Below, one piece after another: positions 1 to 64,000 of a stretch of 64,000 nucleotides of DNA. The notes beneath the pieces were generated by a model. That model saw only the letters and a program-made list of their open reading frames with translations, was not told where the DNA came from and ran no database searches. Position 1 is the stretch's first letter; every line of letters starts with the position of its first letter. Both the position numbers and the translations under genes were made by a program. Origin of the DNA: Spirosoma profusum (lineage in GTDB: Bacteria > Bacteroidota > Bacteroidia > Cytophagales > Spirosomataceae); assembly GCF_014699005.1 (NCBI RefSeq), contig NZ_JACWZY010000007.1, positions 62,001 to 126,000 on the forward strand, written 5' to 3'.

Positions 1-30
1 CAGGTTATTGTGGAAAATGTAAAATGAAGA

Positions 31-91
31 ATGAGCGATGAGTTGGTTGACACCAGCAATTATTAAGTGCGTCAGCAAACTCATCGCTCAT
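31..91. repeat. Intergenic inverted repeat before the tssG-like gene
   Basis: Fourteen bases at 31-44 (ATGAGCGATGAGTT) are perfectly complementary to 78-91. The preceding A/T-rich stretch at 8-30 resembles the AATGTAAAATG-type words in the hairpins before porU and purD. The right arm ends 17 bp before the ATG at 109, so a longer reading frame from GTG 67 would begin inside the repeat. Confidence 0.7.
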
Positions 92-108
92 CACTAAAAT
101 TGAGCTTG

Positions 109-1041
109 ATGGAACTCCTGAACAACTACGCTGAACGCCTGAAACACCTGCCGTTTGACCTAAGGGCCGAGGTGATGCTGGCTGACATGCTTGACGATGG
201 AATTTCGTTCGATGAACTGATTCTGAATCCAATTGGTCCTCATAAACGAGCTTTTGGACGCGACATTGATAGTACCGAATGGATCGAATCACAGCGAAAG
301 GCGCAGCGGTGGTTGCAAATTAACCTGAATCGTAGTGGGCTGTATGACCTGTTGCCCGAAGGGGTTTTTCACCAGCCAACCACCGGCAAGACACTTACTG
401 ATAAGGAAGAAGTGTTGCGTGAAATGGACATTCAGCGTCAGCGGGAAGAAGCCTCACGTCGATTTTTTCTGCCAATTGAACAGGAGTTTCTGCGGCAACG
501 CGTCCGGATTGAGCAGGAAGAGCGCCAGTTTCTGAATACGGCCGACAATATTCCCGATGAGCTGATGGAGCGTTTCTGGACGCTCCCATCGTTTCTGACG
601 CCGATTCAGAAAAAACGTTTGCTGTTGCTGATCCCACTCATGCATCAACTGGCTGGAGACCTGAATGCCATGACAGCCTGTTTTGAGGAATTAATCGAGG
701 AGCGGGTAAGTCTGGCATTCGACGTAGCAGGCGGTACGTTGATTCAAGCCGACGTAGCACCGCTGGGGCAGTGGGAGCTAGGCGAAACGTCGCTGTTCGA
801 TGGATGGCTACCCAACGATGAACCTACATTATGCCTAACGATACGTATCGACCAAAACGAACGTATCGCAAACTATTTGCCAGGGCAACCCGGACGTCAG
901 TTCATTGAATGGCTAAGCGGCTATCTAGTCCCGTTGGATGTGAATTTTCGACTGGAGCTTGATACGTCGGCTATTGAGGATGCTTTTTTATTGGAAGATA
1001 ATGACCAATTCGGTCGACTGGATTTTAATACGTATGTATGA
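109..1041 (+). CDS. tssG: T6SS-iii baseplate protein, TssG-like
   Basis: A soluble protein of about 310 residues immediately upstream of tssK. The N-terminal half holds the segment GLYDLLPEGVFHQP, which is typical of T6SS baseplate wedge proteins, followed by a charged helical stretch around FFLPIEQEFLRQRVRIEQEE. TssG joins TssF and TssE in the wedge that connects the VgrG hub to the sheath. I assign TssG rather than TssF from its length and its position just before tssK; no unique motif settles it. I chose ATG 109 because the upstream in-frame GTG at 67 lies inside an inverted repeat. tssE and tssF are not in the window and are presumably further upstream. Confidence 0.68.
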   Translation: MELLNNYAERLKHLPFDLRAEVMLADMLDDGISFDELILNPIGPHKRAFGRDIDSTEWIESQRKAQRWLQINLNRSGLYDLLPEGVFHQPTTGKTLTDKEEVLREMDIQRQREEASRRFFLPIEQEFLRQRVRIEQEERQFLNTADNIPDELMERFWTLPSFLTPIQKKRLLLLIPLMHQLAGDLNAMTACFEELIEERVSLAFDVAGGTLIQADVAPLGQWELGETSLFDGWLPNDEPTLCLTIRIDQNERIANYLPGQPGRQFIEWLSGYLVPLDVNFRLELDTSAIEDAFLLEDNDQFGRLDFNTYV

Positions 1042-1100
1042 GGTATGATGTAGGATATATTACTTACGCGTGAATTACATCATATATCCTATATTTAACT
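1031..1100. repeat. Imperfect hairpin between the tssG-like gene and tssK
   Basis: The short gap holds TATGATGT and TAGGATAT on the left and ACATCATA and ATATCCTA on the right, giving an imperfect inverted repeat. The same words recur before the M20 peptidase (about 27120-27147) and purB (29986-30063). Confidence 0.5.
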
Positions 1101-1115
1101 AATAACCACTCTCTT

Positions 1116-2273
1116 ATGACTATTCCTGATCTCACCTACCTGCCAGTAAACTGGATTGACGGCATGAAAATCGCCCGGCGGCACTTCACCGAGTGGGAGA
1201 ACTTCATGCATGATCAACTGCGTGATAGTAACTCGCTCGGACTATCCCGATTTCGGTATGGAATCCTGCCCGCCGAAGGTGCGCTTGATATGCAGGTTCA
1301 GTGTGATTTCAATCAGCAAATTCGGGTACATCTTCGAAGCTGTCGCGGCATTACGCCCCACGGCGGACGTATCGATTACCATAATCCAGCCGAAGGTATT
1401 ACCTGCACTACGTCGTTTGCGGCTCTGGCCGAGACGTATGGCTTACAAACCGGCAAACCGCAGACATTCGACGTAGTACTCACAGTCGACCCCTTTAAAC
1501 GAGTTCCTGCCGGCGAGCCTGTTCTGACCGAAACACCTCCGCGTCATCCGTATACCCGACCCAATTATCAACTCAACGTAGTGCCTTCGGGGCAGGTACG
1601 TCCGGGCGAATTGAATTATCAACTGATTATCGGGCGGGTACGATATGGGAACGGTGAAGTGCAGCAGGATACGGATTATCTGCCCGCCTGCACCTCGATT
1701 CATAGTTTGCCGAAGCTCCAGCAATGGTATCAGCAATTTGGTAAACACCTCGAATCGCTGGAAACTAATGCGTATAAAATTTTGCAGAAGAGTAAGGAAC
1801 GTGACCTGAAAAATCCGCTTCAGAACAGCACCTTATTGATGGCTGAGCGGCTGGCTTTTACGTTGGGCGACATCAGTACGCGCTATAGCTGGATCATTCC
1901 GTACGAACCCCCTATCCAGATGATGGAACTGCTCATGCGGCCAGTACAGGCCATCCGCGTGGTGATGACCATGCTGAGTGGTCGTGAGCGTGAGGAATTT
2001 GTGGGGTACATCAGCGAGTGGGCCGACCTGACGCCGGGCGCGCTCGAAGCGCAGCTCAACGCTACGTTACAGCTACCGTATGAACATACTGAGCTAACAA
2101 AGCTGCTTACCGAAGTCGAAATGCTTTACCGAACCTTGTCAAACGTATTCTACAAACTGGCTCAGTTGGATTTTATCGGCAAACGGAAGGGACAAAACGT
2201 CTTCATTATTGAGCATGAAGTAAAGGAAACGCCACCCGAAAAACCTCGTTCGCGCTGGAGCCCACTTGGGTAA
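1116..2273 (+). CDS. tssK: T6SS baseplate protein TssK
   Basis: This 385-residue protein opens with the TssK signature region: the family pattern (V/I)xWxEGMFLxPQHF is represented by VNWIDGMKIARRHFTEWE at residues 11-28. TssK trimers connect the baseplate wedges to the trans-envelope complex. The length is slightly short of proteobacterial TssK (about 440) and fits the Bacteroidetes subtype. The last ~30 residues are charged and proline-rich and probably disordered. The gene follows the tssG-like gene after a 74 bp gap filled by an imperfect hairpin and precedes tssO by 130 bp. Confidence 0.88.
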   Translation: MTIPDLTYLPVNWIDGMKIARRHFTEWENFMHDQLRDSNSLGLSRFRYGILPAEGALDMQVQCDFNQQIRVHLRSCRGITPHGGRIDYHNPAEGITCTTSFAALAETYGLQTGKPQTFDVVLTVDPFKRVPAGEPVLTETPPRHPYTRPNYQLNVVPSGQVRPGELNYQLIIGRVRYGNGEVQQDTDYLPACTSIHSLPKLQQWYQQFGKHLESLETNAYKILQKSKERDLKNPLQNSTLLMAERLAFTLGDISTRYSWIIPYEPPIQMMELLMRPVQAIRVVMTMLSGREREEFVGYISEWADLTPGALEAQLNATLQLPYEHTELTKLLTEVEMLYRTLSNVFYKLAQLDFIGKRKGQNVFIIEHEVKETPPEKPRSRWSPLG

Positions 2274-2403
2274 TTACCGCTAAATAAGTGAACGTAAGTA
2301 TCTGTTTGAAAATACCTTAACATTGACTTCTTAAGTTTCTGGTTTCCTGTTACCGTAGTCAGTCAACTTGAAACCTGGAATTTAAAATAGTAACCCTCTA
2401 TCT

Positions 2404-3336
2404 ATGGAACCACTCAATAAACCCGAACGGCAGCAGGCTTTCAGTCGATTTATGGGCGTTTACTGCCTGTCACTCAGTGTACCAGTACTGGCGGTATATC
2501 TGCTTTTCAGCGCTCCCAACTACGTATTGAAGCAGGAAAACGCCCGACTTACCGAAACCCTCGCCGAACAAAACCAGAAACTGATGAAGCCGATGGACGC
2601 GGTAACGGCTAATATCAAAAACATACAAACCACCGATCAGGCGTATCTGAAGGCGACTGATATTGAAAGAGGAAGCCTGAAAACGCAGCTTTCGAGCCTT
2701 GAAAACGGTCTTCAGCAGCAGGTAAATGGCTTAAAAGCCGATACAGCTCAGCTACAACCTACCAATAAACAACTATCGAGTGGCCTCATCAGTGCGTACG
2801 ATGCTGTGCTGACGTATCGCAATAACATTAGCTATCTGCGCGATGTGATGGAGAAAAAAGGCATTGATGCCAGCCAGATTGACAAGCTGACGGCGGCCCT
2901 TCTTCAGGCTCGGCAGGAAAATGAAATGCTGAAACTACTGGCCGCAAAAACGGCAGCAGCCCCTGCCGCAGCTCCTGCTGCCGCGCCATCGGGGGGAGGA
3001 GGCCCAAATTATTTGTCTCAGTTTCAGGAGTGCACAAGGAAAATGGTTGACGCCCAAAGTCGTATCAATGAACTAACGGCACAGCTTAAAGCGGCTGGCA
3101 GTGCCCCTGCGCCAACGGTAGCTGCTCCGACGGTAGCGGGTGTTTCGCGGTCTGATGTTGAAATGGATATCGTAGACCGTTGCGAGAAAAAAGCGGATGC
3201 TACCAACCGACCACCACTCTGGCGACGGCCGCTCTATGAATTTGCTGTCGAAACGCTTGAAAAAAATACTCGGCCCGATGCTCAGCAACGTATCACGGCC
3301 ATCAATGCCAAACTCCGTCGGTTAGGCTCTGATTGA
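2404..3336 (+). CDS. tssO: T6SS-iii membrane protein TssO
   Basis: The N terminus (LNKPERQQAFSRF then a single hydrophobic span at about residues 18-37) matches TssO, a subunit specific to Bacteroidetes T6SS-iii thought to contribute to the membrane complex that replaces TssJLM. After the membrane span come a long predicted coiled coil (about residues 40-185), an Ala/Pro/Gly-rich linker (about 186-205) and a C-terminal helical domain. At 310 residues it is longer than the TssO proteins I recall, mainly through the coiled coil and linker. Topology is probably one N-terminal anchor with a periplasmic body. It lies 41 bp upstream of clpV. Confidence 0.75.
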   Translation: MEPLNKPERQQAFSRFMGVYCLSLSVPVLAVYLLFSAPNYVLKQENARLTETLAEQNQKLMKPMDAVTANIKNIQTTDQAYLKATDIERGSLKTQLSSLENGLQQQVNGLKADTAQLQPTNKQLSSGLISAYDAVLTYRNNISYLRDVMEKKGIDASQIDKLTAALLQARQENEMLKLLAAKTAAAPAAAPAAAPSGGGGPNYLSQFQECTRKMVDAQSRINELTAQLKAAGSAPAPTVAAPTVAGVSRSDVEMDIVDRCEKKADATNRPPLWRRPLYEFAVETLEKNTRPDAQQRITAINAKLRRLGSD

Positions 3337-3377
3337 TTATTGATAACCCATGACCAATTCCTAAATTCCTTACTCCG

Positions 3378-5909
3378 ATGGCATACACGGAAGACGTAAA
3401 ACGGGCGATTCAGATTGCTCAGGCCCTTTCGAAGGAGTACCAGAACGAAATGTTTGCACCGGCTCATTTGCTTATGGGGCTGTTGCACAATGAGATAGGG
3501 CTGGCATCCTGGCTGGGTGTTCTCGGACAGGACGTACCGTACCTGCGTGAGTGGGCAGAGGTACGTATTGAAGCCAGTCCGAAATCAAGTCGTCTGTCCA
3601 CCAATCCGCCGGGTGATGAACTGGTGAAAACGGCGATGGAACTGGCCGACCTGGTAGCCTTGCAGTTAGGAAAATCCCAAACCGATCCGGTTTGTGTGCT
3701 GGCGGCTCTGCTCAAACCGGGCGTTGGTTTCACGGCCGAACAATTAAAAAGTTTTCCGCTGACCCAGGCTGAACTCATGCAGGCAGCTCTGGCCGACGCC
3801 GACGTGCAAACCGCCGTTGCGCCTGAGAGTAAGGAGAGTGGTCAGCGTCCAGCCAACGTATCGTCAGGGGCAGCTGGGCAGGCGTTGCTACGTTACTGCG
3901 TCGACAAAACGGCGATGGCTGCTGAAGGTCGTTTAGATCCTATTCTGGGTCGTGACCGAGAAGTGCGGATGATGACCGAAACGCTGGGGAGACGTACCAA
4001 ACCGAACGTTATTCTAGTGGGCGAACCGGGTGTTGGGAAAACAGCGTTGGCCGATGGTTTTGCGTTAAACATTGTAGCTCGGCAAGTTCCTGATCATTTG
4101 AAAAATGCCCGCCTGCTTGAACTTGACTTGGGCGCACTGGTCGCTGGAGCGTCTTACAAAGGCGAGGTAGAGGATCGGCTTAAGAGCATTTTGAAGGAGT
4201 TGAAGCAGGATGCTAAAATCATTCTGTTCATCGACGAAATTCATCAGCTTCTCGATAGTCGGGGACCGTTGGGTACGGGCGTAGCGAACCTGCTCAAACC
4301 TGAACTTGCCAAAGGAAACCTGACGGTTATTGGCGCTACTACGTTGGACGAATACCGGAAATACATTGAAACCGATGAAGCTTTTAGTCGCCGGTTCGAT
4401 GTGCTACGTGTGGAGGAACCCGATGTCGATACGGCCATTCGAATGGCGCAGCGCCTGGTGCCATTCTACGAAAATCACCATCAGCTTACCGTTGGGACCG
4501 ATGCTGTGGCCGAAGCGGTTATTCTGGCCAAACGCTACAGCCGAAATCGACGCTTACCCGATGCCGCCGTCGATCTGCTTGACCGAACGTTGTCGGCGGT
4601 ACGTATGATCAGCGAACGTACTCCTGCGGAGGTGACGCAACTGACGGAGCAACTTGATCAGCTAGTGTCTACAAATACGGATACGCTACGTGAACTGCGT
4701 TATCTGTATCAGGAACTGGAAGCCAAAATCAGCCCGATTCTGCTGGCAAATTTAAGTGCGGATGACGTAGCAGATGAAGAATCGAAGGAGGATCCTTTTG
4801 AATCAGCATCGGGCCTGACGGATCATATTCGCGAAACGTTACGTCGACTTTCTGACCTGACAACGACGGCCAAGACTACTGTGGACCGCCACGACGTAGC
4901 GGCTGTGATTTCTCATAAAACCGGTATTCCGCTGGGTAAAATTCAAAGTCAGGAGCGCGACAAATTGCTGGCGATGGATGAAATATTGAAACAACGGGTC
5001 ATCGGTCAGGATCATGCCGTGAAGGCCGTGGCCGATGCTATTCTGGAAGCACGTTCCGGTTTGACGAAAGCAGGACAACCCATTGGATCTTTCTTCCTGC
5101 TGGGACCAACCGGAACCGGGAAAACCGAACTAGCGAAATCCCTGGCCGATTTTCTGTTCAACGATGAGTCGTTTCTAATTCGGTTCGACATGTCGGAGTT
5201 CAAGGAGGAGCATTCGGCGGCTTTACTGTACGGCGCTCCTCCGGGCTACGTTGGGTACGAGGAAGGCGGTTTGCTGGTGAACAAAATCCGCGAGAAACCC
5301 TACTCGGTCGTGCTCTTCGATGAAATTGAAAAAGCACACCCATCGGTATTCGACATCTTTCTGCAAATTCTGGACGAAGGCCGTCTGCACGACCGGCTCG
5401 GCAAAGAAGGCGACTTCTCGGACGCCGTTGTACTATTCACATCGAACATTGGCAGTCAATTGGTTATCCAGCGTTTTGGTGAAGGAAAAATTCCTTCCAA
5501 TACAGAATTGATGGAAACCATGAGTCGCCACTTCCGACCAGAGTTTTTGGCGCGTCTGACAGAGATTGTGCCTTTTGCGCCGATTTCGGAAGAAAACGCT
5601 GTTCGAATTTTTAACCTGCACCTGCGTGGCCTGACCGACCAACTGGTCAAACAAGGCATTACACTCGATTTAACGCCCGACGTACGGCGGCATCTGGCAC
5701 TTTCAGGATTTACGCCCCAATACGGCGCCCGGCAGCTAAAAGGCGTGATTCGGAATCAACTACGTCGCCCAATTTCGCGGATGATTGTTGGGGGCGAGGT
5801 TACGAAGGGAACGACGATTCATGTCGGGCTGGAAAATGACGAATTGATTTGGTCGATTACCCACGAAGAAACTAAACAACCCGCCGACGTATCGGCTCAA
5901 CCCGCCTAA
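3378..5909 (+). CDS. clpV: T6SS sheath-disassembly ATPase ClpV/TssH
   Basis: This 843-residue Clp/Hsp100 ATPase has an N-terminal Clp repeat domain (about 1-150) and two AAA+ modules. Walker A motifs are GEPGVGKT near residue 214 and GPTGTGKT near 575. Walker B motifs are FIDEIH near 284 and LFDEIEKAHP near 647. ClpV extracts contracted TssB/TssC sheath for recycling. It is distinguished from housekeeping ClpB by its position among tss genes, a reduced middle region and a divergent N domain. The stop codon is 3 bp from the PAAR start, so the two are very probably co-translated. Confidence 0.93.
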   Translation: MAYTEDVKRAIQIAQALSKEYQNEMFAPAHLLMGLLHNEIGLASWLGVLGQDVPYLREWAEVRIEASPKSSRLSTNPPGDELVKTAMELADLVALQLGKSQTDPVCVLAALLKPGVGFTAEQLKSFPLTQAELMQAALADADVQTAVAPESKESGQRPANVSSGAAGQALLRYCVDKTAMAAEGRLDPILGRDREVRMMTETLGRRTKPNVILVGEPGVGKTALADGFALNIVARQVPDHLKNARLLELDLGALVAGASYKGEVEDRLKSILKELKQDAKIILFIDEIHQLLDSRGPLGTGVANLLKPELAKGNLTVIGATTLDEYRKYIETDEAFSRRFDVLRVEEPDVDTAIRMAQRLVPFYENHHQLTVGTDAVAEAVILAKRYSRNRRLPDAAVDLLDRTLSAVRMISERTPAEVTQLTEQLDQLVSTNTDTLRELRYLYQELEAKISPILLANLSADDVADEESKEDPFESASGLTDHIRETLRRLSDLTTTAKTTVDRHDVAAVISHKTGIPLGKIQSQERDKLLAMDEILKQRVIGQDHAVKAVADAILEARSGLTKAGQPIGSFFLLGPTGTGKTELAKSLADFLFNDESFLIRFDMSEFKEEHSAALLYGAPPGYVGYEEGGLLVNKIREKPYSVVLFDEIEKAHPSVFDIFLQILDEGRLHDRLGKEGDFSDAVVLFTSNIGSQLVIQRFGEGKIPSNTELMETMSRHFRPEFLARLTEIVPFAPISEENAVRIFNLHLRGLTDQLVKQGITLDLTPDVRRHLALSGFTPQYGARQLKGVIRNQLRRPISRMIVGGEVTKGTTIHVGLENDELIWSITHEETKQPADVSAQPA

Positions 5910-5912
5910 GCT

Positions 5913-6215
5913 ATGGGACAACCAGCCGCTCGATTAACAGATATGCACGTTTGCCCGATGCAAACGCCCGCCGTTGTTCCCATTCCGCACGTTGGTGGCC
6001 CTATTACGGGACCGGGTATGCCGACGGTGCTCATTGGCGGTATACCCGCAGCCGTCATGGGCGATATGTGTGTCTGTGTCGGCCCTCCCGACGTGATTGT
6101 AAAAGGGTCTGCTACGGTGATGATCGGCGGAAAACCAGCCGCTCGCCTGGGTGATACGACGGCTCACGGAGGTAGCATCGTAGCGGGTTTCCCCACCGTA
6201 ATGATCGGAGGGTAA
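5913..6215 (+). CDS. PAAR-domain spike tip protein
   Basis: A compact 100-residue PAAR protein that begins PAARLTD and repeats the module near residue 73 (KPAARLGD). It is rich in Gly/Pro with V(L/M)IGG turns at regular spacing, as expected for the cone that sharpens VgrG. No N- or C-terminal effector extension is present, so it is a bare tip. It starts 3 bp after clpV and ends on GG. It is encoded several kilobases from vgrG but within the same run of plus-strand tss genes. Confidence 0.93.
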   Translation: MGQPAARLTDMHVCPMQTPAVVPIPHVGGPITGPGMPTVLIGGIPAAVMGDMCVCVGPPDVIVKGSATVMIGGKPAARLGDTTAHGGSIVAGFPTVMIGG

Positions 6216-6265
6216 AAGCTGAAACTACACAACGTATTAATTTATAACCACTTAACTAATAGATT

Positions 6266-6712
6266 ATGTTCGACTATGGAATTGGTGGACAGGAGCGTAA
6301 GCTCAACGTCAGCGAGAGTATCGTTGACATCCCCCAGAACAAAACCCTGCTCATTGAGAAATTAACGTCTGATCCTCCAGTTCGTCCGGAAGTAGTTGAA
6401 GGACTCAAAACAGTGGGCGAAGTGTTTGCCCATTTCCGGCCCGAACAGGAAGTGGAATTCGACACTGAAGACGGAAGCACCATCAGCGAAACCCTGCGCT
6501 TTAACTCGCTCGCCGATTTTGGTAAAAAAGGCGTCATTGCCCAAAGCGAATACCTACAGCAACTGAACATGACCTTCGAAGATTTTCAGCGATACGTCCG
6601 GCAACTGAAGTCGAACAAAATTCTGAAAACAATGCTCGAAAATCCCGATGGGAAAGCCGCTTACGTAGCAGCCATTCAGGCCATGATCCGCGAACTGGAA
6701 GAGGTACAATAA
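6266..6712 (+). CDS. tssB: T6SS contractile sheath small subunit TssB
   Basis: This 148-residue protein matches TssB/VipA in length and architecture. It has a conserved acidic and aromatic middle (VEFDTEDGS ... LRFNSLADFGKKGVIAQS) and a helical C-terminal half ending in IRELEEV. TssB pairs with TssC to form the contractile sheath. It starts 50 bp after the PAAR gene and is followed by tssC after 71 bp, the conserved order. Confidence 0.92.
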   Translation: MFDYGIGGQERKLNVSESIVDIPQNKTLLIEKLTSDPPVRPEVVEGLKTVGEVFAHFRPEQEVEFDTEDGSTISETLRFNSLADFGKKGVIAQSEYLQQLNMTFEDFQRYVRQLKSNKILKTMLENPDGKAAYVAAIQAMIRELEEVQ

Positions 6713-6783
6713 AACTGTTCCATGTTTTTGCAACAGCGACTTGGAATTTGACACATGGAGTTTAGAACCCGAAACATCAAAAT

Positions 6784-8145: not shown

Positions 8146-8177
8146 TCAATTCTTACACCTTTTAACATAGATACATC

Positions 8178-8564
8178 ATGGCTTCATATCGTGCTGAATT
8201 GGAAATAGATGGTGGAGACCCTCTTCCGATAAAACGACTCTTTTTTACAGCTACCCGAAAACGGGATGCTAATGGTAGACCCGCTTCGTCAACGAGCTGG
8301 CGTGTGCTTGTGGCCCTCGATACTGCCGAAGATAACACCTTTACGCAGTGGATGATAGACCCTAAAAGTCAGAAGGACGTAACGGTTAAGTATCGCAATA
8401 TTGAAGACGATTCAGTGTTGAAGCAGTGGGAACTGAAAAAGGCATATTGCTATGGCATGAAAGAATCGTTTGTGGGAGATGCTATGTTCATGGTGACTGA
8501 TTTGCTGGTAGCCGGTCAGGAAGTGACAAATGGGAATGCGACCTTAAAATATGAGTGGAAATAA
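8178..8564 (+). CDS. tssD: T6SS tube protein Hcp/TssD, paralogue 1
   Basis: A 128-residue Hcp-like protein with the Bacteroidetes TssD layout: an N-terminal strand (YRAELEIDGG), the DANGRPAS loop, the FTQWMIDPKSQKDV segment, the KKAYCYGMKESF segment and a last strand ending ATLKYEW. Hcp hexamers stack to form the expelled tube. This copy has standard length with no insertion and lies closest to tssB and tssC, so it is the likely structural tube subunit. The TACGT/ACGTA word common in neighbouring genes is sparse in hcp1 and hcp2. Confidence 0.9.
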   Translation: MASYRAELEIDGGDPLPIKRLFFTATRKRDANGRPASSTSWRVLVALDTAEDNTFTQWMIDPKSQKDVTVKYRNIEDDSVLKQWELKKAYCYGMKESFVGDAMFMVTDLLVAGQEVTNGNATLKYEWK

Positions 8565-8591
8565 TTATTCACGGCTTTAAACCAACTAGTC

Positions 8592-9128: not shown

Positions 9129-9131
9129 TCA

Positions 9132-9185: not shown

Positions 9186-9203
9186 GTATCAAACGCTTTT
9201 TAT

Positions 9204-9575: not shown

Positions 9576-9582
9576 ACTGAAG

Positions 9583-9636: not shown

Positions 9637-9664
9637 AAAACTGGTCAACAAAACGTATTCAGCT

Positions 9665-20046: not shown

Positions 20047-23000
20047 TGTAAAATGGATAATGGGCAATGGGTTTCTCCGACGTAGTTGGACCTATTATCT
20101 ATTACTCCTCATTATCCATTATTCATTATCCATTATTCATGCCCCAGCTTTGGCTCAATCGGTGCTTCGGGAAGGTATCTGGGTAAAAATTGGTGTTACG
20201 TCTTCTGGCGTTTATCGACTTAGTCAGTCGCAGTTAGCACGTATCAGTCCTGCTTTTGCGTCCACCGACCCTCGCAAACTGCGACTCTACGGAAATGGCG
20301 GAGCTGTGTTACCTCAACCGAACTCGACTCCCCGAATTAATGATCTGGCCGAAAATGCCATTCAGGTTGCAGGTGAAGCTGATGGCCGATTCGACGCCGA
20401 TGACGCAATTATATTTTTTGGACAAAGCCCGCATGTGATACGTTATGATTCCGTCGCCCGACGGTTTTCGCACCAGATCAATGCGTATTCAGATACAACT
20501 TTTTATTTTCTGACAATCGGTACTACGTCGGGACTGCGTATTCAGGAACGGCCAGCGGGCGCAGTGTCTGCTACGGCTGCTAATACTACGTTCGATGATT
20601 ATCAGTTTCAGGAAAAGGATTTGGTAAAAACACCGACGGTGCGTTCGGGACGCGAGTGGCTGGGTGAATACCTAACTATTGATACCACCAAAATCATTAC
20701 GTTCGATATGCCGGGTTTGGTAGCGAATTCGCCCATTCGGGTGGTTTCGTCAGTGATGGCGGGCGCTACGTCGTCGACTGCATATCGTTTTGGGCTAAAC
20801 GACGTAGCAATTGGCTCAGTGGCTATTCCATCTGTTTCGGGTTATGAGTATGATTTTCAGGGCGTTCTACGTAGTATCGATACGTTGGTAGCTAAACCAA
20901 CGGCTATCAGTCCATTACGTATCAGTGTTACGTTCCAGAAGCGCGGACAGATTTCTGCGCAGGGTTATTTGAATTTTGTGGGCGTTCAGGCTCGTCGTGA
21001 ACTCCGTCAATATGATTCCCCGACCTGGGCACGTCGGCTGGGGGCTGGTTCCTATGCGGTTCGGCAGGCAACGAATGCGCTACGTATCTGGGACGTAACG
21101 AATCCACTCGTGCCCGCCACGCAGTCGTATTCGCTATCAAGTGCGCAGGATGCCGCCTGGTCATCGACACGGATGGCCGATTATTTCCTGTTTACGGATA
21201 CACAATTAATTACGCCGGTATCGCTGGTTTCGGTAGCCAATCAGGATTTGCACAGCCAGCCTACGCCTGATTTGGTCATTGTGACTCCTGCCGCCTGGCG
21301 CGATCAGGCCGAAAGGCTCGCTACGTTCCGGCGCGAACATGATCAATTGTCAGTATTGGTAGCCACTACGTCGCAGGTTTACAATGAGTTCGGTTCGGGG
21401 CGCCCTGACGTAACGGCGATTCGGGATATGGTACGTTATTTCTACCTGAAACAACCCAATAAACTCCGGTACTTGCTCCTGTTTGGCGACGCTACGTATG
21501 ATTACCGGAACATTATGGGGATGACCAACCCTACGCAACAGGCCAATATGGTGCCTGTGTATGAAAGTCGTGAATCGCAGCATCCGGTCCTGAGTTATTC
21601 TTCCGATGATTACTTCGGATTTATGGGTGCTGATGAAGGCGAGTGGCCTGAGTCGGTGGCAGGTGATTACCAGATGGTAATCGGGGTCGGTCGGTTGCCC
21701 GTCAAGTCGGCTTCCGAAGCGCAAACTGTCGTTGATAAATTGATTCGATACAGCTCCGATAAATCGGTGACTGGCGACTGGCAAACCAAGGTAATGATGA
21801 TTGCCGATGATGGCGATGGAAATATTCATCAGGGGGATGCCAATTCGCTGGCCGCGATTGTTGAAACGCAGTCGCCTATGTATCGCCCTGAGCGCGTTTT
21901 TCTGGATGCCTTCCCACAGGAAAATACAGCCAATGGCCAAAAAGCGCCAACGGTGAATCAATTGATCAATCAGGCGATGGTCGATGGACGATTGGTGATT
22001 AATTACAGCGGACACGGGGGCGTATTGGCACTAGCCGATGAGCAGATTGTTACCCTTCAGGACATTCTTTCCTGGAAAAATCGTCGGCTTCCGTTGATGG
22101 TTACTGCTACGTGTCAGTTTGGTCGCTACGACGACCCAAATGTTAATTCGGGAGCGGAGTTGGCTTTGCTGAGCCGCATCGGTGGTCCTATTGGCTTACT
22201 GACAACCACTCGCCCTGTTTACGCCAACACAAACCTGCTCCTGAATGAAGCCTTTTACCGATTTCTGTTTAAGCCAATTAATGGACAGATGCCGCGTCTG
22301 GGCGATGTAATACGGCTTACCAAAAACAATAGTCTGGCCGGTTCTCTCAACCGGAATTTCGCCCTATTGGGTGACCCATCCATGCGGTTGGCTTATCCTC
22401 AGGCGCAGGTACAGCTTACGCAGATAAACGGCAAACTATTGACGGACACTGCTCGAATCGATACGTTAAAAGCGCTTCAAACGGTTGAATTATCCGGTGA
22501 AATTCGGCAGCAAGGCTCCCGCCTGGCCGATTTTTCCGGTACGTTGCGGCTAACATTATACGACAAATCAGTCACTCGTGCTACGTTGGGTTCTGAGGCT
22601 GGCAGCCCCAGGATGACGTATCAGATTTACAATAGTCCGTTATTTACGGGTCAGGTTCCTGTACAGCAGGGGAGGTTTGTAGTTCGGTTTACCATGCCGA
22701 AAGACATTAATTATACAGTCGGCCCCGGCAAAATTTATACGTACGCTATTCGATCTGACAGTACGCTGGAAGCGTTGGGAAATTACGACAGCCTGCGCGT
22801 TGGCGGCAGTGTTTTCGCCGATACGGTTGATAATCAGCCGCCAGTCGTTGCACTTTCGGCTATCGGTGGAATAACTGACGGTGACGTAGTGCGCGTGACC
22901 GGACCAGACGTAGCGATACGTATCGGACTGACTGACAATCGAGGCATTAATATTGCTAGGTCAGGACTAGGGCATGAACTAACAGTGCGGCTAAACGACC

Positions 23001-31724: not shown

Positions 31725-34700
31725 ATGTCCACTTGTACTTTGACAGGCTTCTGTCGCTGGGGAAATCGTACCCCCACCGACCGAAGCCAGGTTTCGTTTC
31801 CGATACGTAATAATCTAATTGCTTTCCTGCTAAAACTTGTTAAGCTAGAAATTATTGGGCTGTTGTTGCTTGGTATGAGTGTTGCTCAGGCGCAATACCT
31901 TCAATGGAGCACATCGGCGCCCAATAAACATGCTGGCCAGGGAGTTGCCCATAAAATTGGCCCCGATGGCGCTATTTACGTATTGACCGAAGGTCAGAAC
32001 AACGCATCGGGCTACTCAACTGGCGATATAAAGGAGTTTGGGCCGCCTTTATGGGGAGCGGGTGGTGGTTATAACGCGATTTTATCGAAATACTCGCCCG
32101 ACGGTAATACGTTGTTGTGGGTACGAATCTTCAATGGGGGCGACAACAGCAGTTTTGCACCATTGGATTTCGAACTGGCGCCAAACGGCGAACTGGTTCT
32201 GCTTTGTTCAGTGAACGGAAGTGATCACGTACCAGCACTGATTACACCCAACGGCTTCCAGACGAGCCCGTCCAACGGGAACGTAGCGATTCTGATGAAG
32301 CTATCGCCAGATGGTAAAACGATTAATTACGGTACGTATCTGGGATCTGTTAATGGTGGCGCCAACGAGCGGTCGAGGTTCTGGAATGAATCGCCTTATT
32401 TCCAGAATCTGATTGTCGCTCCAGATGGCGCTATGATTCTGATGCTCCAGAACCAAACCTGGTCGGGGGCCTTACCAACTACGCCCAACGCCTACCAGGC
32501 CATGCCAAAAGGAGGTAGCGACGACCCTTACATGGCTATTTTCAATCAGGATGGCACGTTACGTTACGCTTCGTATTACTCGACCAACGCACCCGGCGCC
32601 CAATTTCCAACCGATATTCTGGCGGATGCGGATGGAAGTTTCCACGTAACGTATCGAAATGGCAACGGTCATATGCTGCCCGTTACGCCCGGAACCGCCT
32701 ACGCTACTCCATCGCTGGCCAATCAGGTAGGGTACATTGGCCATTATAATTCGTCGGGTCAGCTAATGGAAGCGACGTCCTTGCCTGGAACGCAGGTGCA
32801 GGGCATTCGGAAACGGCCCAACGGAAATATTGTGGTAATGGGCGTTCTGACCACACCCGCCGAATTTACGATTGTGGGTTCGTCGCCTTATACGGCCTCG
32901 CAGAACGGGCAATTAACATTGACCGAATTCGACCCGACGTTACGAACAGTAATTCGAAGCGTAGTGATTAGCCCCGGCAATGTGGATGCGTCGGATATGG
33001 AGATTGACGAGCAGGGGCGGATTCACATCAGCGGGAAAGCCAATGCAGCGGGGGCCATCAGTCCGACACCGGGTGCGCTGCATTCATCGTTTGGCAACAA
33101 CAATACGTATTACCTGGTAGTCGACTGCAATTTTGATAAGGTTCTATACGCTACGTATCTGAATACCGGCGAAAACAACGCCACCACGGGCGCTTACGAT
33201 CTGGAACTGAGTGGCTGTCGGGCGACCATTCTGGCGACAGCCGGTTCGCAGCAGCCTTACCCGGTTACACCAATCGGGCTAGCCAATGACGGTACGTCAA
33301 CGCTGACGGGCTATAACCTGACCGCTAATCCGGAAGGGTCTACGGTTTACCTGACTGCCTTCAATTTTGCGAAATACGTCCCTACTACAAATACAATTGC
33401 GGCTACCGTTACTTCCTATTGCGAAGGAGCGGGATTATTTCCGATAACTGGCTCGAGGCTAACCTATACAACGCCTACCCTCAAAGGAGTCGCCGATGCT
33501 AATCCGGCTCCTTACTCGCTGTATTATCAGTGGCAAAGCAGCGCGTCGATGGCTGGTCCGTGGACCGATATTCCAGGTGCGACGACCAAAGATTATACAC
33601 CGGTTTCCTTAACGGCCGGATCAGTTTTCTTTCGTCGGGCCGGTCGGCAAACACCTTTCGATGCTACGTGTTCTCCCGCTGCCAGTTGCGTCGAAACGAA
33701 TTACAGCAACGTAGTAGAATACACGGTTTCGGGAAATAAAGCCGCTTCGACAAATCTGGCCAGCCAGCCGTACGGTATTTGTAGTGGTGCTACGTTGTCG
33801 TTAAACGTAGTAATTACGCCGGGAAGCGATGGCGACCACGGCGCCTATGCCTACCAACTTAGTCCCTTAGGTGGAGGATCGCCGGTTTTTTCGGGAACCG
33901 TTGCTACGTCGGCAACACCAATTACGTTGCCCATTACCACCGAAGGTGAGTTTTGGCTGAACGTAACGGATAGTCGAGGCTGCACTAGTTATGATACGTT
34001 AAAAACGCTATTCTTCGACATAAAACTTCCCGCCCGAACGGTGTTTACCTGCGGAAATTCAAGCGTTACGTTGGGACCACCGGCCTTACCGCCAACCTAT
34101 GCCAACGTACCAACCAATACGTTCAGCTGGTCGCCGACGGCCGGGCTCGACAATCCGAACGGCATCAATCCAAGACTATCCAACTTACCGGCACCGGGCG
34201 CATCGCAGGATTATTATCTGGATTTCAACGGCTGCCGTATCGATACCGTTACGGTGACCAACCAAAGCGTGACACCGCTACCGATGTTACCCAGTTTGAC
34301 TGTCTGTCAGGGTGATACGGTTCGGCTGGGTCAGGGGCTCACGGTGCAGGCTGGCGTCGATTACCGATGGGCGCCGGGCCTTGGTATTGCCGACCCTGCT
34401 TCTATTCACCCACTTTTAACGGCTTCGTTTGCTCCGCAAGGTGCGAATACACTAACGTATACCGTACAGGCTTCCAACGGCGTATCGGGTTGTCTACAAA
34501 CTACAAATCAGCAGGTTACCATCTTCAAAACGCCAAATAATGCCTTTAATCATATCCAGCCTTACGTGTATTGCGCGCAGGCAGGGCCACCAGCCGCGAC
34601 CCATTTTGGCACTCCTTCCGAAACCGGAATCATGTATAGCTGGACGGCGGTTGTCACGAATTTATCGGCTACACAAGGCGTACCGACCCCCGAACAGGCG

Positions 34701-42164: not shown

Positions 42165-43610
42165 ATGACTGCACAGGACGCTTATCTGATTATTGATGTT
42201 GGTACCGGAAATGTTCGGGTCGCCGTGGCCCAACCAGATGGACAGATTCTTCAGGTCGAACGGGAAGATGTTCACTATGAACGAGATAGCCAGTATCCGG
42301 AATCCATTTATTTCGATCCCGAACAGACTTGGGGGCAAATTCTTCGTCTTGCAAAAAAAGCGTTGGCCAACAGTGTTGACGTAACAATCCGGGCCATTAC
42401 GGCTACGAGCCAGCGTGAAGGTATTGTGGTGGTGAACCGGGATGGACAATCACTCATTGGCATGCCCAACATCGATCATCGGGGCCGTGAGTGGGAAAAC
42501 GACATCGCCAATAAAGATTGGATCTACAATCTGACTGGTCGTTACCCGACCTCGCTTTTTTCAGCACTGAAATTGGTGGGATTACGGCAACGTAGAGAAA
42601 ATCTCTGGCAGGAAGTTGTTACGTTTCTGAGTATCAGCGATTGGGTACAGTATCAGCTAAGTGGAATTGCTGGCTACGAACACTCGCAGGCTTCCGAAAC
42701 GCTGCTCTACGACGTAGCGGCCAAACGGTGGTCACCCGATTTGTGCACTACGTTCAGCATTGATACGTCACTTTTGCCACCTTTGATATCGTCTGGAACC
42801 GTTCTGGGAAAAATTCATGAATCGGTCGCGACGGAGCTGGCTATTTTGCCCGAAACGCTGATCATCGTTGGCGGAGCCGATACGCAACTGGCCATTCGGA
42901 GTACGCAGCCATCGATAGATGATGTCGTTATCGTGTCCGGTACCACCACGCCTATTACTAAAATTGCGGCTCACTACGTAACAGATGACCAGCAACGTAC
43001 CTGGACCAGCCGCCATACCGATGCTGACAGTTTCATCCTGGAAGCTAACGCGGGCGTAACGGGTCTCAACTATCAGCGTTTGAAAGAAATTTTCTACCCC
43101 AACGAATCCTACGAAACGATTGAGCAGGAGGTTATTGCCAGTGAACACTCGCAGTGCATAGCGGCTCTGGGTTCGTTGCTGGCCGACGAGAAAACGCCAC
43201 TCATTCGAGGTGGTTTTCTGTTCAATACGCCGGTTTCGCACCAGCTGACGCGGGGTGATTTTGTCTTTGCTACGCTCTGGGACATTGCCTGTAGCATTTA
43301 CGAAAATTACAAAAGCCTCTGTGAGGTTAGTCCGCATTCGCTGGACTACATCTGGGCGTGCGGGGGAGGGGTACAGAGTCGGGTGCTACGTCAGTATCTG
43401 GCTAATCTGACCCGAAAAAAAATCATCATTCGTGATACGTATCGACAGGCGTCGGTGGTCGGTGGGGTCTTTGTATGCAATCAGGCACTCGGCCTTCCTG
43501 ATCCTGAACCTTCCACCCTGGAAAGCCTTGTTCCGAACGATGAAGCGCGTTTTATGGATTTATACGCCGACTGGAAGCGCGTTCGTCAGACCTTTAAAAC
43601 CCTGAGTTGA
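42165..43610 (+). CDS. FGGY-family carbohydrate kinase, LsrK-like
   Basis: About 481 residues from ATG 42165 (MTAQDAYLIIDVGTGNVRVA); upstream TTG starts add little. The FGGY fold is shown by the N-terminal phosphate-1 motif IDVGTGNVRVAVAQ, the ATSQREGIVVVN segment near 87 and the C-terminal adenosine motif ACGGGVQSRVLRQYLANL near 401. It looks closest to autoinducer-2 kinase LsrK among the branches I know, but without lsr genes nearby a four- or five-carbon polyol or ketose is a better guess. Its stop overlaps the start of the second kinase by 4 bp. Confidence 0.82.
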   Translation: MTAQDAYLIIDVGTGNVRVAVAQPDGQILQVEREDVHYERDSQYPESIYFDPEQTWGQILRLAKKALANSVDVTIRAITATSQREGIVVVNRDGQSLIGMPNIDHRGREWENDIANKDWIYNLTGRYPTSLFSALKLVGLRQRRENLWQEVVTFLSISDWVQYQLSGIAGYEHSQASETLLYDVAAKRWSPDLCTTFSIDTSLLPPLISSGTVLGKIHESVATELAILPETLIIVGGADTQLAIRSTQPSIDDVVIVSGTTTPITKIAAHYVTDDQQRTWTSRHTDADSFILEANAGVTGLNYQRLKEIFYPNESYETIEQEVIASEHSQCIAALGSLLADEKTPLIRGGFLFNTPVSHQLTRGDFVFATLWDIACSIYENYKSLCEVSPHSLDYIWACGGGVQSRVLRQYLANLTRKKIIIRDTYRQASVVGGVFVCNQALGLPDPEPSTLESLVPNDEARFMDLYADWKRVRQTFKTLS

Positions 43611-45046
43611 TGCCAGCTTATTTTATCGGAATCGATATTGGTACACAGGGCGTACGGGTTGTCCTGGTTGACGAAAAGGGGGAAATGGAGGCTTCTGCGT
43701 CGGAGGTTTTTTCGTTGACCGAACAATCCCGGCTTGAACAATCGCCCCAGGAATGGTGGGACTGTTGCCGACGCTGCCTGAACGTATTGATACGTGATTT
43801 ACCATCCAACGTAATAAAACAGTCGATCAGATCGATAGCCGTTACGTCGACGTCGGGCACGGTTATTCCCCTGGATGAACGTAACGAACCGCTTCATAAC
43901 GCTCTTATGTACAGTGACCCTCGCTCGGCTGCGGAGGGAAAAATCTGCAAGACTGTTGCTGAAACGTACCATGCCGAGGGCTACACAGGCTTCAATGCGT
44001 CGAGTGGGTTGTCGAAAATCGTTTGGTTTATCAATCAGTTTCCAGAACAGGCCGCCCGGATTCATACCTGGATTCACGCGGCTGACTATATCACCGGAAA
44101 GTTGTCGGGTAATTTTGGCGTCACGGACTATACTAATGCGCTGAAATCAGGATATGACGTAGTGAACGAGTGCTGGCCAACGTATCTGTTCGATCAATTG
44201 CCGCTTCAGAAAAGTTGGATGCAGGACGTAGTGCCTTCTGGCAAACCCATTGGTACGTTGTTACCCAGATTGGTTAATGAATTTAGCCTGCCGCCCGTTA
44301 CGGTTGTAGCCGGTATGACGGATGGCTGTGCCTCGCAGGTGGCTTCAGGAGCCGTTCGGCCGGGTGACTGGAACACAACTATCGGTACTACGTTGGTCGT
44401 GAAAGGCGTTACGTACCAACCCCTTAACGACCCTGAAGGACGATTGTACAGTCATCGACATCCTGAAGGGTATTGGATGCCGGGTGGAGCCAGCAACATC
44501 GGTGCCGATTGGGTATCAACCGATTTCGGGGATAAGCTCCAGATACTGAATGAAGAAGCAGCTCAACGGATTCCTACGTCTTATGTCGCCTATCCACTAC
44601 GTCGGCCGGGAGAGCGATTTCCATTTATTTCGCCTAATGCGCGGGGGTTCGCGCCCGACGGGCTTTCGGAAGTGGCGTTATTTGCGGCTAATATGGAGGG
44701 CGTTGCCCACGTCGAGCGATACGCCTACGAACTGATCGAACAGCTATCGGGCGAAACTGTCCGTGCGGTGTATACGGCAGGTGGCACCAGCAATAGTGAT
44801 ACGTGGCTGGCGATACGTAGCGCCGTGCTGAACCGGCCCATTTATAAGTGTACTCACGTAACGGGAGCCGTTGGCGCGGCTATTCTGGCGGCTTCGCAAA
44901 CGTATTACGGGTCGTTGAGCGAGGCCGCGCGGGCAATGACGCATATCGAGAAAGAAATAGTACCGCATGCTGATTGGATACAATCTTATGACGAAGGTTA
45001 TGTACGGTTTATACAGACATTGCGAGAAAAAGGGTTTATTCATTGA
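43607..45046 (+). CDS. FGGY-family carbohydrate kinase, xylulokinase-like
   Basis: A 479-residue FGGY kinase with IGIDIGTQGVRVVLVD at residues 6-21, AVTSTSGTVIPLDERNEPL near 78-96, AGMTDGCASQVASGAV near 234, and TAGGTSNSDTWLAIRSAVLN near 389. It is distinct from the preceding kinase, to which it is translationally coupled by a 4 bp overlap (ATGA). Two different FGGY kinases in tandem suggest sequential phosphorylation, a heteromeric enzyme, or two substrates entering through one transporter. The substrate is not predictable from the sequence alone. Confidence 0.85.
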   Translation: MMPAYFIGIDIGTQGVRVVLVDEKGEMEASASEVFSLTEQSRLEQSPQEWWDCCRRCLNVLIRDLPSNVIKQSIRSIAVTSTSGTVIPLDERNEPLHNALMYSDPRSAAEGKICKTVAETYHAEGYTGFNASSGLSKIVWFINQFPEQAARIHTWIHAADYITGKLSGNFGVTDYTNALKSGYDVVNECWPTYLFDQLPLQKSWMQDVVPSGKPIGTLLPRLVNEFSLPPVTVVAGMTDGCASQVASGAVRPGDWNTTIGTTLVVKGVTYQPLNDPEGRLYSHRHPEGYWMPGGASNIGADWVSTDFGDKLQILNEEAAQRIPTSYVAYPLRRPGERFPFISPNARGFAPDGLSEVALFAANMEGVAHVERYAYELIEQLSGETVRAVYTAGGTSNSDTWLAIRSAVLNRPIYKCTHVTGAVGAAILAASQTYYGSLSEAARAMTHIEKEIVPHADWIQSYDEGYVRFIQTLREKGFIH

Positions 45047-45760: not shown

Positions 45761-45816
45761 GGTTGTTCTTTCAAGGTTTAAACGAAAAGCCATAGCAATC
45801 TAAATCACTAATACGT

Positions 45817-61923: not shown

Positions 61924-61930
61924 TCATTTT

Positions 61931-61964
61931 TTGTTTGGGCCAAGCTGAAGCTTGGCCCAAACAA
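61931..61964. terminator. Bidirectional terminator between PSP1 and the minus-strand gene
   Basis: TTGTTTGGGCCAAGCT (61931-61946) pairs perfectly with 61949-61964 around GA. It shares the word GGGCCAAGCT with the hairpin at 28520-28598. Confidence 0.9.
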
Positions 61965-61969
61965 TTTTA

Positions 61970-62962
61970 CTAAAAGTCGCCAGAGTAAAAGGGGCTGAAG
62001 ACGTAGTAACTGCTATCACGCTTGGCGAGTTTAGGGGCGGTCTGGACGTAGAGCACAAATCGATGAGCTCGGTTAGAACCATCGGTCCATTCGTAAAAAG
62101 GCCGCTCGCGGGTGTATAACTTGTCAACTTCCCGGATGTGTACTCCTTCGATACGTTTAGGTTCAACGGCGAGGCCATTTATCAATACGTCGATATCGGT
62201 GGCGTATTCATCGTATAGCTTCAGGTAATCGTCTTTGGTACGGGTAACAAACGCATTCTTATTGCTGAAAAATGTAGCTTCCATCAGTTTGTTCATGGAA
62301 AAGCTATTAGATTCTCCAAGTGGATGCTCTGAAACAGCGTTTGCCAACAAAAACTGTTTCCAACGTAATCGAATTTGATTCGGAGTTGGAGTTTTATGAG
62401 TTGTGCTCACAAAGATTCGATACAATTCAGGGTATCTTTCAGCTCCTTCGATGTTCTCCCACTTCTGATAAATCAAGATTTCATTGGTATTCTCAAACGA
62501 AACAGTAGACAAGTCCGCTAGTTGTGATTCCTGCGCATTAATGAAAAGTTTGATTGGCAGGGTCGGGTCTTTGAGGTCCAGATGATTATTCCGAATACAC
62601 AAAATATCCGGATAATGAGTTGTAGGCGAAGATTTAAACAATATGACCCGACCTTTATAACGTATTGTATCAGGTTTTGTGTAGTCAGCTACGAGAGCCG
62701 ACTCGCAGAACCAGGGCAAATCCGGCTGGTCGAGTTGGTTGGCTAATACACGTGTCGCATTTGTGAGCGGAAATATGGCCTTTTTTTTAGTCGAAGTTAC
62801 TTCAGTTTGCGATGAATGTCGACACGCAAATGCCATAACACTCATAACGGCCATCCAGGCAACGTAGCGCCACCAGGTTGCTGAGCCAGAACGCTGGCTG
62901 TTTATCATGTCGATACGTTGCCGCAGGCCGGAGCCATTGAAACGGTTCGTGAATGAGTACAT
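61970..62962 (-). CDS. Membrane-anchored protein resembling the C-terminal part of BlaR1/M56 proteins
   Basis: 330 residues. The N-terminal ~55 residues (RFNGSGLRQRIDMINSQRSG then a span WWRYVAWMAVMSVMAFACRH) look like the junction after an M56 peptidase domain in Bacteroidetes BlaR1-like proteins, but the peptidase domain itself is absent. The rest is soluble, probably periplasmic, with no motif I recognise; it ends YYVFSPFYSGDF. The start lies 6 bp downstream of the stop of the next gene, which suggests coupling and a possible duplication of the C-terminal part. Called as a gene of unknown function. Confidence 0.6.
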   Translation of the reverse strand: MYSFTNRFNGSGLRQRIDMINSQRSGSATWWRYVAWMAVMSVMAFACRHSSQTEVTSTKKKAIFPLTNATRVLANQLDQPDLPWFCESALVADYTKPDTIRYKGRVILFKSSPTTHYPDILCIRNNHLDLKDPTLPIKLFINAQESQLADLSTVSFENTNEILIYQKWENIEGAERYPELYRIFVSTTHKTPTPNQIRLRWKQFLLANAVSEHPLGESNSFSMNKLMEATFFSNKNAFVTRTKDDYLKLYDEYATDIDVLINGLAVEPKRIEGVHIREVDKLYTRERPFYEWTDGSNRAHRFVLYVQTAPKLAKRDSSYYVFSPFYSGDF

Positions 62963-62968
62963 AACATT

Positions 62969-64000
62969 CTATTCTTCAATGGTGTAGATCAGAATTGCTG
63001 ATATGAAGGATTCTTTGCTTTCAGAGTTTTGTTGTGATTTTTTGACAACGGAGTAGAGTTGATTGACCTTCAATTTTCCAATAGACTCAGGCGTAGCAGC
63101 TTCATTATTAACAAAGACTTTTACGGCTCCTAATCGTTCATCAATAGTTAACGTACCATCGTCCTTGACGACTACTCCACTGCTACGGGTAGTTTTATTC
63201 TTGAAAAATTCCTTCGAATAGCTTGATGATCCACTCCCTAAATCTTTGAATTTTTGCTCTCCATCTGAAAGTAAATAATCCAGGCGATGTTCCCTGAAAA
63301 ACTGAGCGGCAGCATTTTCTTCAGCAAGAGCAGTCTTTCGGAGTGATTCAGGTAAATTATCTCCGTAATAGCGAAGTGAGCCTGTGCCGCGATAGCCGAC
63401 ATTTCTGCCAATCCCTATATATCCCGCAATCGTCTCAATAGGCTTGTTACCCGTTTGTAGCTCATTCATGGTCGTACGTGCACCCTGATCTTTAACTGAG
63501 AAGATAATTCGATTAATATGAGTATAGAATAGGTCAAACTTAATCTCATTTATCTGCATACTATCGCCGTGTTTGGCAAACTCCTGACGCATCACAGCAA
63601 AATCGTCAAACGTAGTTTTTGGGGTAACAATCCAGTAAAGCCGATTGCCCTGATAAGCCATATAGCGAGAAGGACTTGAACGTAGCGAATCGACTTCTAC
63701 ACTACGTTGAACAGAATCTGCCTGTACTTTAACAAGTTGTGATGAGGGTTTAATTGTAGACGTAGCAACTTCAGATTTAATGATTGACTTACTGTCAGGG
63801 ATAGAAATAATCTCTCCGGGCTGCATTACTACGTTGGGGGTGCCACTTAGCGTAGTAATTGTCTCGACGATGGGTTGCGGAACGTAGCGTTTTATTGTCT
63901 CCACGTGCTTATGACGGGCAAAGGCCGATGCTATGGTCAGGGCTGCCAGCAAAAAAACAGGGTATTTGAGCCAGGAAATGGCAGCCGATTCTTTTCGATT
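62969..64000 (-). CDS. Probable BlaR1/M56-family protein, C-terminal part, runs off the window
   Basis: The reading frame is open to the window edge; the TTG at 63952 is only the first possible start inside the window and should not be taken as the true one. The edge-proximal residues (NRKESAAISWLKYPVFLLAALTIASAFA) resemble the membrane span that follows an M56 peptidase domain. The ~320-residue C-terminal part is soluble and of unknown function, with no recognised motif. The gene's 5' part, possibly with the HExxH peptidase domain and an adjacent BlaI-type repressor gene, would lie beyond 64000. Confidence 0.6.
   Translation of the reverse strand, partial: NRKESAAISWLKYPVFLLAALTIASAFARHKHVETIKRYVPQPIVETITTLSGTPNVVMQPGEIISIPDSKSIIKSEVATSTIKPSSQLVKVQADSVQRSVEVDSLRSSPSRYMAYQGNRLYWIVTPKTTFDDFAVMRQEFAKHGDSMQINEIKFDLFYTHINRIIFSVKDQGARTTMNELQTGNKPIETIAGYIGIGRNVGYRGTGSLRYYGDNLPESLRKTALAEENAAAQFFREHRLDYLLSDGEQKFKDLGSGSSSYSKEFFKNKTTRSSGVVVKDDGTLTIDERLGAVKVFVNNEAATPESIGKLKVNQLYSVVKKSQQNSESKESFISAILIYTIEE

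Follow-up and report, generated by a model that had tools for sequence, protein, structure and literature searches.

The window, by which we mean the whole 64-kb stretch of DNA analysed, is part of an 8.73-Mb genome in 81 contigs (G000, hereafter the own genome) that a tree of nine concatenated proteins places inside Spirosoma, with low support for two deep branches (0.33 and 0.42). The NuoL protein encoded in the window shares 88-90% identity with the Spirosoma sequences retrieved. Genes and the DNA between them both carry many copies of the pentamer ACGTA/TACGT, the core of a longer, asymmetric word, DACGTANYR, which is the subject of this analysis. In the list below, places are distinct occurrences of ACGTA/TACGT and sites are occurrences of ACGTANYR.

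1..64000, both strands: dispersed ACGTANYR (consensus DACGTANYR), 374 sites, 188 on the + strand and 186 on the - strand
1116..2273: interval with 9 places and 5 sites, close to the window average
20521..21540: peak interval with 16 places and 17 sites, lying within a gene for a C25-family peptidase, apparently PorU-like
31741..32760: interval with 9 places and 10 sites
43601..44600: interval with 13 places and 12 sites, nearly all within an FGGY carbohydrate kinase gene
45809..45816, - strand: complete ACGTANYR site in intergenic DNA

ACGTA/TACGT is over-represented across the own genome

An earlier, sequence-only reading of the window had proposed an iterated TACGT/ACGTA word, and we find that word to be real and stronger than was claimed. 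Across 47 open reading frames (ORFs; mechanical calls) of the window, 511 copies are present where a codon-preserving shuffle predicts 167.6 (z 31.4; z values derive from 15-100 shuffles). The word ranks first among all pentamers, ahead of every unrelated CG-containing one, and the runners-up overlap it. Shuffles that preserve codons or dinucleotides ruled out composition and codon usage as the cause. A 331-kb sample of own-genome coding sequence holds 2491 copies against 857 expected (z about 74-80), and ACGTA is enriched 2.3- to 3.3-fold in 16 further loci of this genome (L092-L107). For such per-locus ratios, loci shorter than 8 kb were excluded, the window was represented by its first 25 kb only, and L001-L008 were unused.

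The window holds 449 distinct places in total, or 7.0 per kb, a mean above which 20521-21540 and 43601-44600 stand out as peaks. The interval counts of the sequence-only reading held for 20521-21540 (16), 1116-2273 (9) and 31741-32760 (9), and its 14 for 43601-44600 is corrected to 13; TGCGT and TTCGT, which it had put at 2-3 copies each in 20521-21540, occur there 4 and 3 times. Occurrence in all three codon phases was borne out over the 47 ORFs. The pentamer is also present at the four intergenic positions given as examples (26334, 27053, 39584 and 45812), but the longer motif is found only at 45812.

The repeated unit is an asymmetric nine-base word

Flanking bases and a mismatch table led to a unit longer than the pentamer. 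Perfect copies of DACGTANYR number 1500 against 221 expected (6.8-fold), and a single mismatch in the ACGTA core removes the effect (0.67-1.11 of expectation by position, 0.60-1.33 by base). The Y and R positions behave as near-clean classes: after ACGTAN, the dinucleotides CA, CG, TG and TA are enriched 7.8-, 7.2-, 5.4- and 3.8-fold, and the 12 others lie at 1.2-1.7 (1.1-2.0 in a rerun). At the N position G is favoured (10.7) over T, A and C (5.7, 4.9 and 4.2), and a C immediately 5' of ACGTA roughly halves the enrichment (3.8). That one core change abolishes enrichment, and that Y and R act as classes, fits a sequence-reading enzyme. The palindrome TACGTA, considered as the unit, was rejected, as it falls to 0.65 of the count that a Markov model derives from its halves (174 vs 267, strand-doubled). 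The pentamer first proposed is the enriched core of the repeated unit but not the unit itself, which is longer, asymmetric and distinct from TACGTA. Over the whole own genome there are 39,401 copies of ACGTANYR and 3,143 of its reversed control word, about 4.5 ACGTANYR per kb; ratios from this and the other long whole-genome tables (TACGTA density, CGCCTC) were estimated by eye.

Sites are strand-symmetric, irregularly spaced and bend codon choice

Orientation is balanced in the window (188:186), and in genes the coding and template strands carry equal numbers (844 and 826, with 137 and 130 expected). Eleven loci of another word-rich Spirosoma, G137, gave 168:199, six adjacent loci among them leaning 79:115; no clear orientation skew with replication was evident in the window or over these 11 loci, for which origin and terminus were not located. 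Sites show no periodicity at distances up to 60 bp. Their pair correlation rises from 1.11 at 8-20 bp to 1.34-1.38 at 20-100 bp and is close to 1 past 400 bp, with 28% of gaps shorter than 50 bp (22% expected); the spacing is neither saturating nor more even than chance, and close pairs are not avoided. This tolerance of close pairs speaks against functions that saturate near a site, such as uptake, Chi or the direction of repair, and, with no sign of saturation, favours a process that acts at every site individually.

The suggestion that synonymous choice is bent towards the word is supported. Before GTANYR, Asn is encoded as AAC rather than AAT 178:6 (overall 2676:2823) and Asp as GAC rather than GAT 193:7 (overall 2475:3281), with 76:5 for Tyr and 35:5 for His; the corresponding ratios in a reference set of 24 word-poor Spirosoma loci, from which the intermediates G145 and G120 were excluded, are 26:7, 19:34, 32:27 and 8:4. 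At fourfold third positions within ACGTA the word base is favoured 1.7- to 4.1-fold and the other three bases each stand at 0.21-0.76, being depressed in all 8 testable combinations of position and orientation, whereas the word base at the same positions in the word-poor loci stands at 0.76-1.63. Depression of every alternative base excludes a single mutation chemistry and contradicts the simple mutational bias that had been listed among possible causes. Intergenic DNA (38 kb) carries 159 sites against 20.7 +/- 4.6 expected. At the protein level, dipeptides whose codons can contain the word show almost no difference when taken together (1.11 vs 1.08 of expectation); for Asn-Val by itself the values are 1.10 vs 0.73. 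Sixteen core-building changes on the own lineage, a small sample, comprise seven kinds of base change, 11 transitions and 5 transversions.

The word is scattered among Spirosoma species and unenriched in DNA judged acquired

Among 34 Spirosoma genomes, TACGTA density is 0.99 per kb in the own genome, 0.89 in G216, 0.79 in G162, 0.60 in G171 and 0.56 in G137; G145 (0.40) and G120 (0.36) are intermediate, and the other 27 lie at 0.19-0.33 (G219 at 0.21). Two Fibrisoma genomes have about 0.5 per kb. Named species were assigned to genomes by equal TACGTA counts; Fibrisoma limi (L063), for instance, corresponds to G001, whose counts G075 shares. In a draw of 390 genomes of the order that did not include G216, ACGTANYR exceeds four times its control in six (G000, G162, G171, G137 and the two Fibrisoma) and reaches about three times control in G120 and G145. 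The same motif classes were found in G162, G171, G216, G137 and Fibrisoma, six genomes of which two are sisters, and weakly in G145 and G120; they were not seen in G152 or in G157 and G183 together, and S. arboris, S. luteum and S. spitsbergense are word-poor (ACGTA 1.04-1.18). Parsimony, with G145 and G120 scored as low, requires at least 5 changes to account for 6 word-rich tips among 34, about the same as with shuffled tip labels (5.6 on average, 32% of shuffles needing 5 or fewer). Both repeated loss of an old word and a transferable determinant fit this scattered pattern. No comparable replacement word appeared in eight word-poor Spirosoma groups, where no pentamer exceeds z 12.4.

In three regions judged to be acquired the word is at background: 6 ACGTANYR vs 5.6 expected in L091, 10 vs 6.7 in L214 and 4 vs 6.2 in L216 of G171. 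Three own-genome loci fetched for their methylases are less enriched in ACGTA than the others: L091, of low GC content (37%), has it at 0.88 of expectation, and it numbers 37 vs 24.7 in L214 and 40 vs 21.8 in L215. As a separate observation, ACGTANYR is strongly avoided in genus g77, with 19, 42 and 34 copies in G325, G338 and G361 beside 1280, 1396 and 1170 of the reversed control.

A methylase tied to the word was not found in the families searched

The orphan methyltransferase that the sequence-only reading suggested looking for gained no support. Profiles PF01555, PF02384, PF07669 and PF02086 were run on 36 Spirosoma genomes, and PF00145 and Vsr (very-short-patch repair) on the own genome only; no methylase tied to the word emerged from this set. 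PF01555 has no match in G000 or G171, and PF02086 none in G000, G162 or G171. PF02384 is present in 34 of the 36 genomes and PF07669 in 33, word-rich and word-poor alike, with strong PF07669 matches in word-poor species as well. Each of the five word-rich Spirosoma searched has members of both families, which, being in nearly all Spirosoma, permit no discrimination; a subfamily of either may still mark the word.

The one PF00145 methylase and one Vsr of the own genome lie side by side in L091 (G000:C22:455000-473000), and its sole PF07669 protein is a type IIG enzyme in L214. DNA around both lacks word enrichment, and the type IIG enzyme, which also has an inverted extra specificity domain and a resolvase-like gene beside it, was judged late and variable. 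Nine methylase regions, a selection from the hits, were compared, eight from word-rich Spirosoma and one from G145: between genomes, identity does not exceed 29%, except for HsdM of G000 and G171 (56%). The own HsdM sits in word-rich DNA (26 vs 6.5), but type I sites contain gaps of several bases, unlike ACGTANYR.

These loci are of some interest in themselves. L091 is a low-GC island holding the 5-methylcytosine (m5C) methylase, the Vsr endonuclease and an adjacent protein of 435 residues that matched no PADLOC model and is possibly a partner restriction enzyme. The type IIG restriction-methylase at L214:5114-10095 (G000:C46) carries a second, inverted TaqI-like specificity fragment and has a resolvase-like gene beside it (first residues, read by eye), so that the locus may be a switchable specificity system.

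Related genera favour or forbid other words

Comparison with related genera, as had been proposed, revealed enrichment of other words there. In a survey of 71 named loci, from which those shorter than 15 kb were excluded, the top pentamer reaches z >=10 in 11. CAATGC occurs 179 times vs 63 in Dyadobacter and AAACCG 225 vs 76 in Larkinella. Pontibacter has AGGTATAG 57 times vs 4.3, and Hymenobacter sp. CA2-7 (L050, L190-L193) has GGCTAGCC 74 times vs 6.0 (strand-doubled, about 12-fold). AGGTAC in Telluribacter and AATATT in Adhaeribacter are further lineage-specific enriched words; the loci for these two genera and for Dyadobacter, Larkinella and Pontibacter are L022, L178-L181, L013-L015, L021, L182-L185, L032, L186-L189 and L037. 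Three GATC pentamers are absent from Hymenobacter sp. CA2-7, where 163 GATCA, 137 AGATC and 192 CGATC are expected.

Another word is virtually missing from Spirosoma. Coding DNA of 31 genomes (the own genome and 30 Spirosoma loci, L138-L167), 869 kb in all, contains CGCCKC (CGCCGC + CGCCTC) once where 832 copies are expected, and the 18 one-off neighbours checked stand at 0.47-1.55 of expectation. Whole genomes of Spirosoma (34), Larkinella (9), Fibrisoma (2) and a further genus, g3 (4), hold 1-205 copies of CGCCTC and roughly 1,900-4,800 of its reversed control, and the other 151 of 200 family genomes have CGCCTC at about half of control or more. This absence does not track ACGTANYR; L091 and L214 also lack CGCCKC (0 of 18 expected), and L216 holds 6 of 16 expected in genes. 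CGCCKC looks like an unprotected cleavage site, for example of a nuclease without a methylase. Several palindromic hexamers are depleted in the same own genome and 30 loci (GGATCC 0.11, CTGCAG 0.20, CCGCGG 0.21), as in restriction avoidance.

Apart from the words, the window carries type VI secretion genes at 3378-11950, encoding a Clp-type AAA ATPase, TssC and a baseplate hub/OB protein.

A strict reader of the word as the favoured explanation

The best explanation we can offer, to which we assign a probability of roughly 0.38, is a strict reader through which repair, conversion or protection comes to favour DNA that bears the word. DACGTANYR would be the recognition word of a putative strict sequence-reading enzyme or complex, and DNA with the perfect word would gain an advantage site by site, either because mismatches are repaired or converted in favour of the strand with the word or because the bound word is shielded from change. 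The word would then build up in resident DNA, coding or not, and decay after loss of the reader. Strict, class-like recognition argues for an enzyme-type reader over a graded binding protein; that there is a single heritable reader, and that biased repair or protection acts instead of ordinary selection, we infer. A bolder version, held more tentatively still, is that the word is self-propagating: a strict reader in Spirosoma and Fibrisoma may drive its own nine-base word into resident DNA, by biased repair, conversion or protection, until tens of thousands of sites have formed, with other readers in related genera. It is likewise only possible that such words form lineage-specific chromosome dialects, perhaps without a methylase.

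Several observations count against the strict reader. Its strictness is imperfect, as 1.6-fold enrichment survives an incorrect base at Y or R, and ACGTA lacking NYR still stands at 1.4-fold. Sites less than 200 bp apart cluster without explanation, and enrichment is 1.7- to 2.4-fold in one codon phase as opposed to 6.9- to 9.0-fold elsewhere, a weakness that may stem from smaller codon freedom there. Of the 16 core-building changes, 10 alter the encoded amino acid. Searches of the methylase families and Vsr produced no reader gene, we know of no enzyme that behaves like this reader, and enrichment statistics cannot tell biased repair or protection from weak selection at each site.

Weak selection for sites of an abundant chromosome-organising protein, each slightly aiding folding or packing, ranks next and is a less probable though serious competitor. 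A density of about 1 site per 200 bp on both strands, tolerance of close pairs, the lack of a clear skew and the presence of sites in coding and intergenic DNA alike all suit such a protein; yet binding energies are usually graded and one-off core words are unenriched, and absence from close relatives would be odd for a basic chromosome protein. We also rank the strict reader above an account modelled on the highly iterated palindromes (HIPs) of cyanobacteria, in which ACGTANYR would be marked by a methylase and its copies would build up through methyl-directed mismatch repair or through selection for efficient repair. Accumulation based on methylation was proposed for HIP1 by Elhai (2015, PMC4390886), who reports that alternate HIPs accompany matching methylases. 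Strict recognition of a word in the degenerate code of the International Union of Pure and Applied Chemistry (IUPAC) is typical of methylases, and PF02384 and PF07669 members occur in all five word-rich Spirosoma searched. Both families are, however, common in word-poor species, PF01555 and PF02086 are missing from word-rich genomes as detailed above, the own PF00145 and type IIG enzymes lie in unenriched DNA, and the compared methylases diverge apart from the one HsdM pair. Elhai's model (PMC4390886) saturates at about 1 site per kb, against about 5 per kb here with close pairs tolerated, and methylation is on balance an unlikely cause.

A DNA-uptake word, driven into the genome by transformation of competent cells that prefer word-bearing DNA, would be asymmetric, on both strands and unenriched in regions judged acquired, as this one is, and related genera have other words, as in uptake dialects. 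One site per fragment should suffice for uptake, though, and here close pairs are tolerated, the word is several times denser than known uptake words and one-off core words are unenriched, which makes uptake quite improbable. We give still less credence to a Chi-like word or a KOPS (FtsK-orienting polar sequence)-like word, read by a recombination nuclease or chromosome pump. Such words are asymmetric, strict, over-represented and variable among lineages, and six neighbouring G137 loci do lean 79:115; against this stand the balance in the window (188:186) and between coding and template strands, the lack of a steady bias over the 11 G137 loci (168:199), the close pairs, and the failure to find a comparable replacement word in word-poor Spirosoma. 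Least credible of all is mutational bias of a single chemistry, for example deamination with very-short-patch repair. ATGTA (0.75) and ACATA (0.62) are depleted and the own genome does have one Vsr beside an m5C methylase, but this pair lies in an island without word enrichment, and transversion alternatives and every other testable position are depressed too.

The origin of HIP1-type words is, to our knowledge, an open question, and Spirosoma adds a second case, denser than the first and from a different phylum. With word-bearing and word-free species side by side on one tree, the gene responsible should be traceable by gene-content comparison, and the strict, class-like motif indicates the kind of reader to look for. 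Synonymous codon choice is shifted about 7-fold (His) to 37-fold (Asp) before GTANYR (odds ratios), which is relevant to codon-usage studies. If the word is indeed self-propagating, bacterial chromosomes would be rewritable in lineage-specific dialects; the HIP1 model set out in PMC4390886 requires methylases.

Comparison with known systems

The open-access literature searched contained nothing on the ACGTANYR word or on iterated words in Bacteroidota; the 18-nt Caldithrix repeat described in PMC5317091 is unrelated. HIP1 (GCGATCGC) and the alternate HIPs of cyanobacteria offer the nearest likeness: there too one short word is hugely over-represented genome-wide and is lost or replaced in some related genomes (PMC4390886). 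The sequence-only reading had drawn this comparison, which is fair in that the Spirosoma word is iterated, lineage-bound, over-represented across coding and non-coding DNA and able to bend synonymous choice, but the unit here is longer and asymmetric. HIPs are palindromic and reported with matching methylases, whereas the Spirosoma word, in Bacteroidota and at about 4.5 ACGTANYR per kb genome-wide, is not (TACGTA being at 0.65 of Markov expectation), and no methylase of the families searched could be tied to it. We do not class it as a HIP, since palindromy fails and the methylase association is undecided.

Uptake sequences, such as those of Neisseriaceae (DNA uptake sequence, DUS) and Pasteurellaceae (uptake signal sequence, USS), share with it asymmetry, equal occurrence on both strands and lineage dialects, and are scarce in acquired DNA, as the Spirosoma word is unenriched in the three regions judged acquired. 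It differs from them in being denser and more degenerate, in the lack of even or saturating spacing, close neighbours not being avoided, and in having no known connection with competence. Chi and KOPS are likewise asymmetric and over-represented, with a nuclease complex or a translocase as reader; the Spirosoma word is much denser and has no clear orientation skew. With restriction-modification sites it has in common the strict reading of one IUPAC word, with a residue of 1.6-fold for a wrong Y or R. Such sites, however, are normally avoided by their hosts, whereas the Spirosoma word, neither neutral nor avoided, is enriched 6- to 7-fold.

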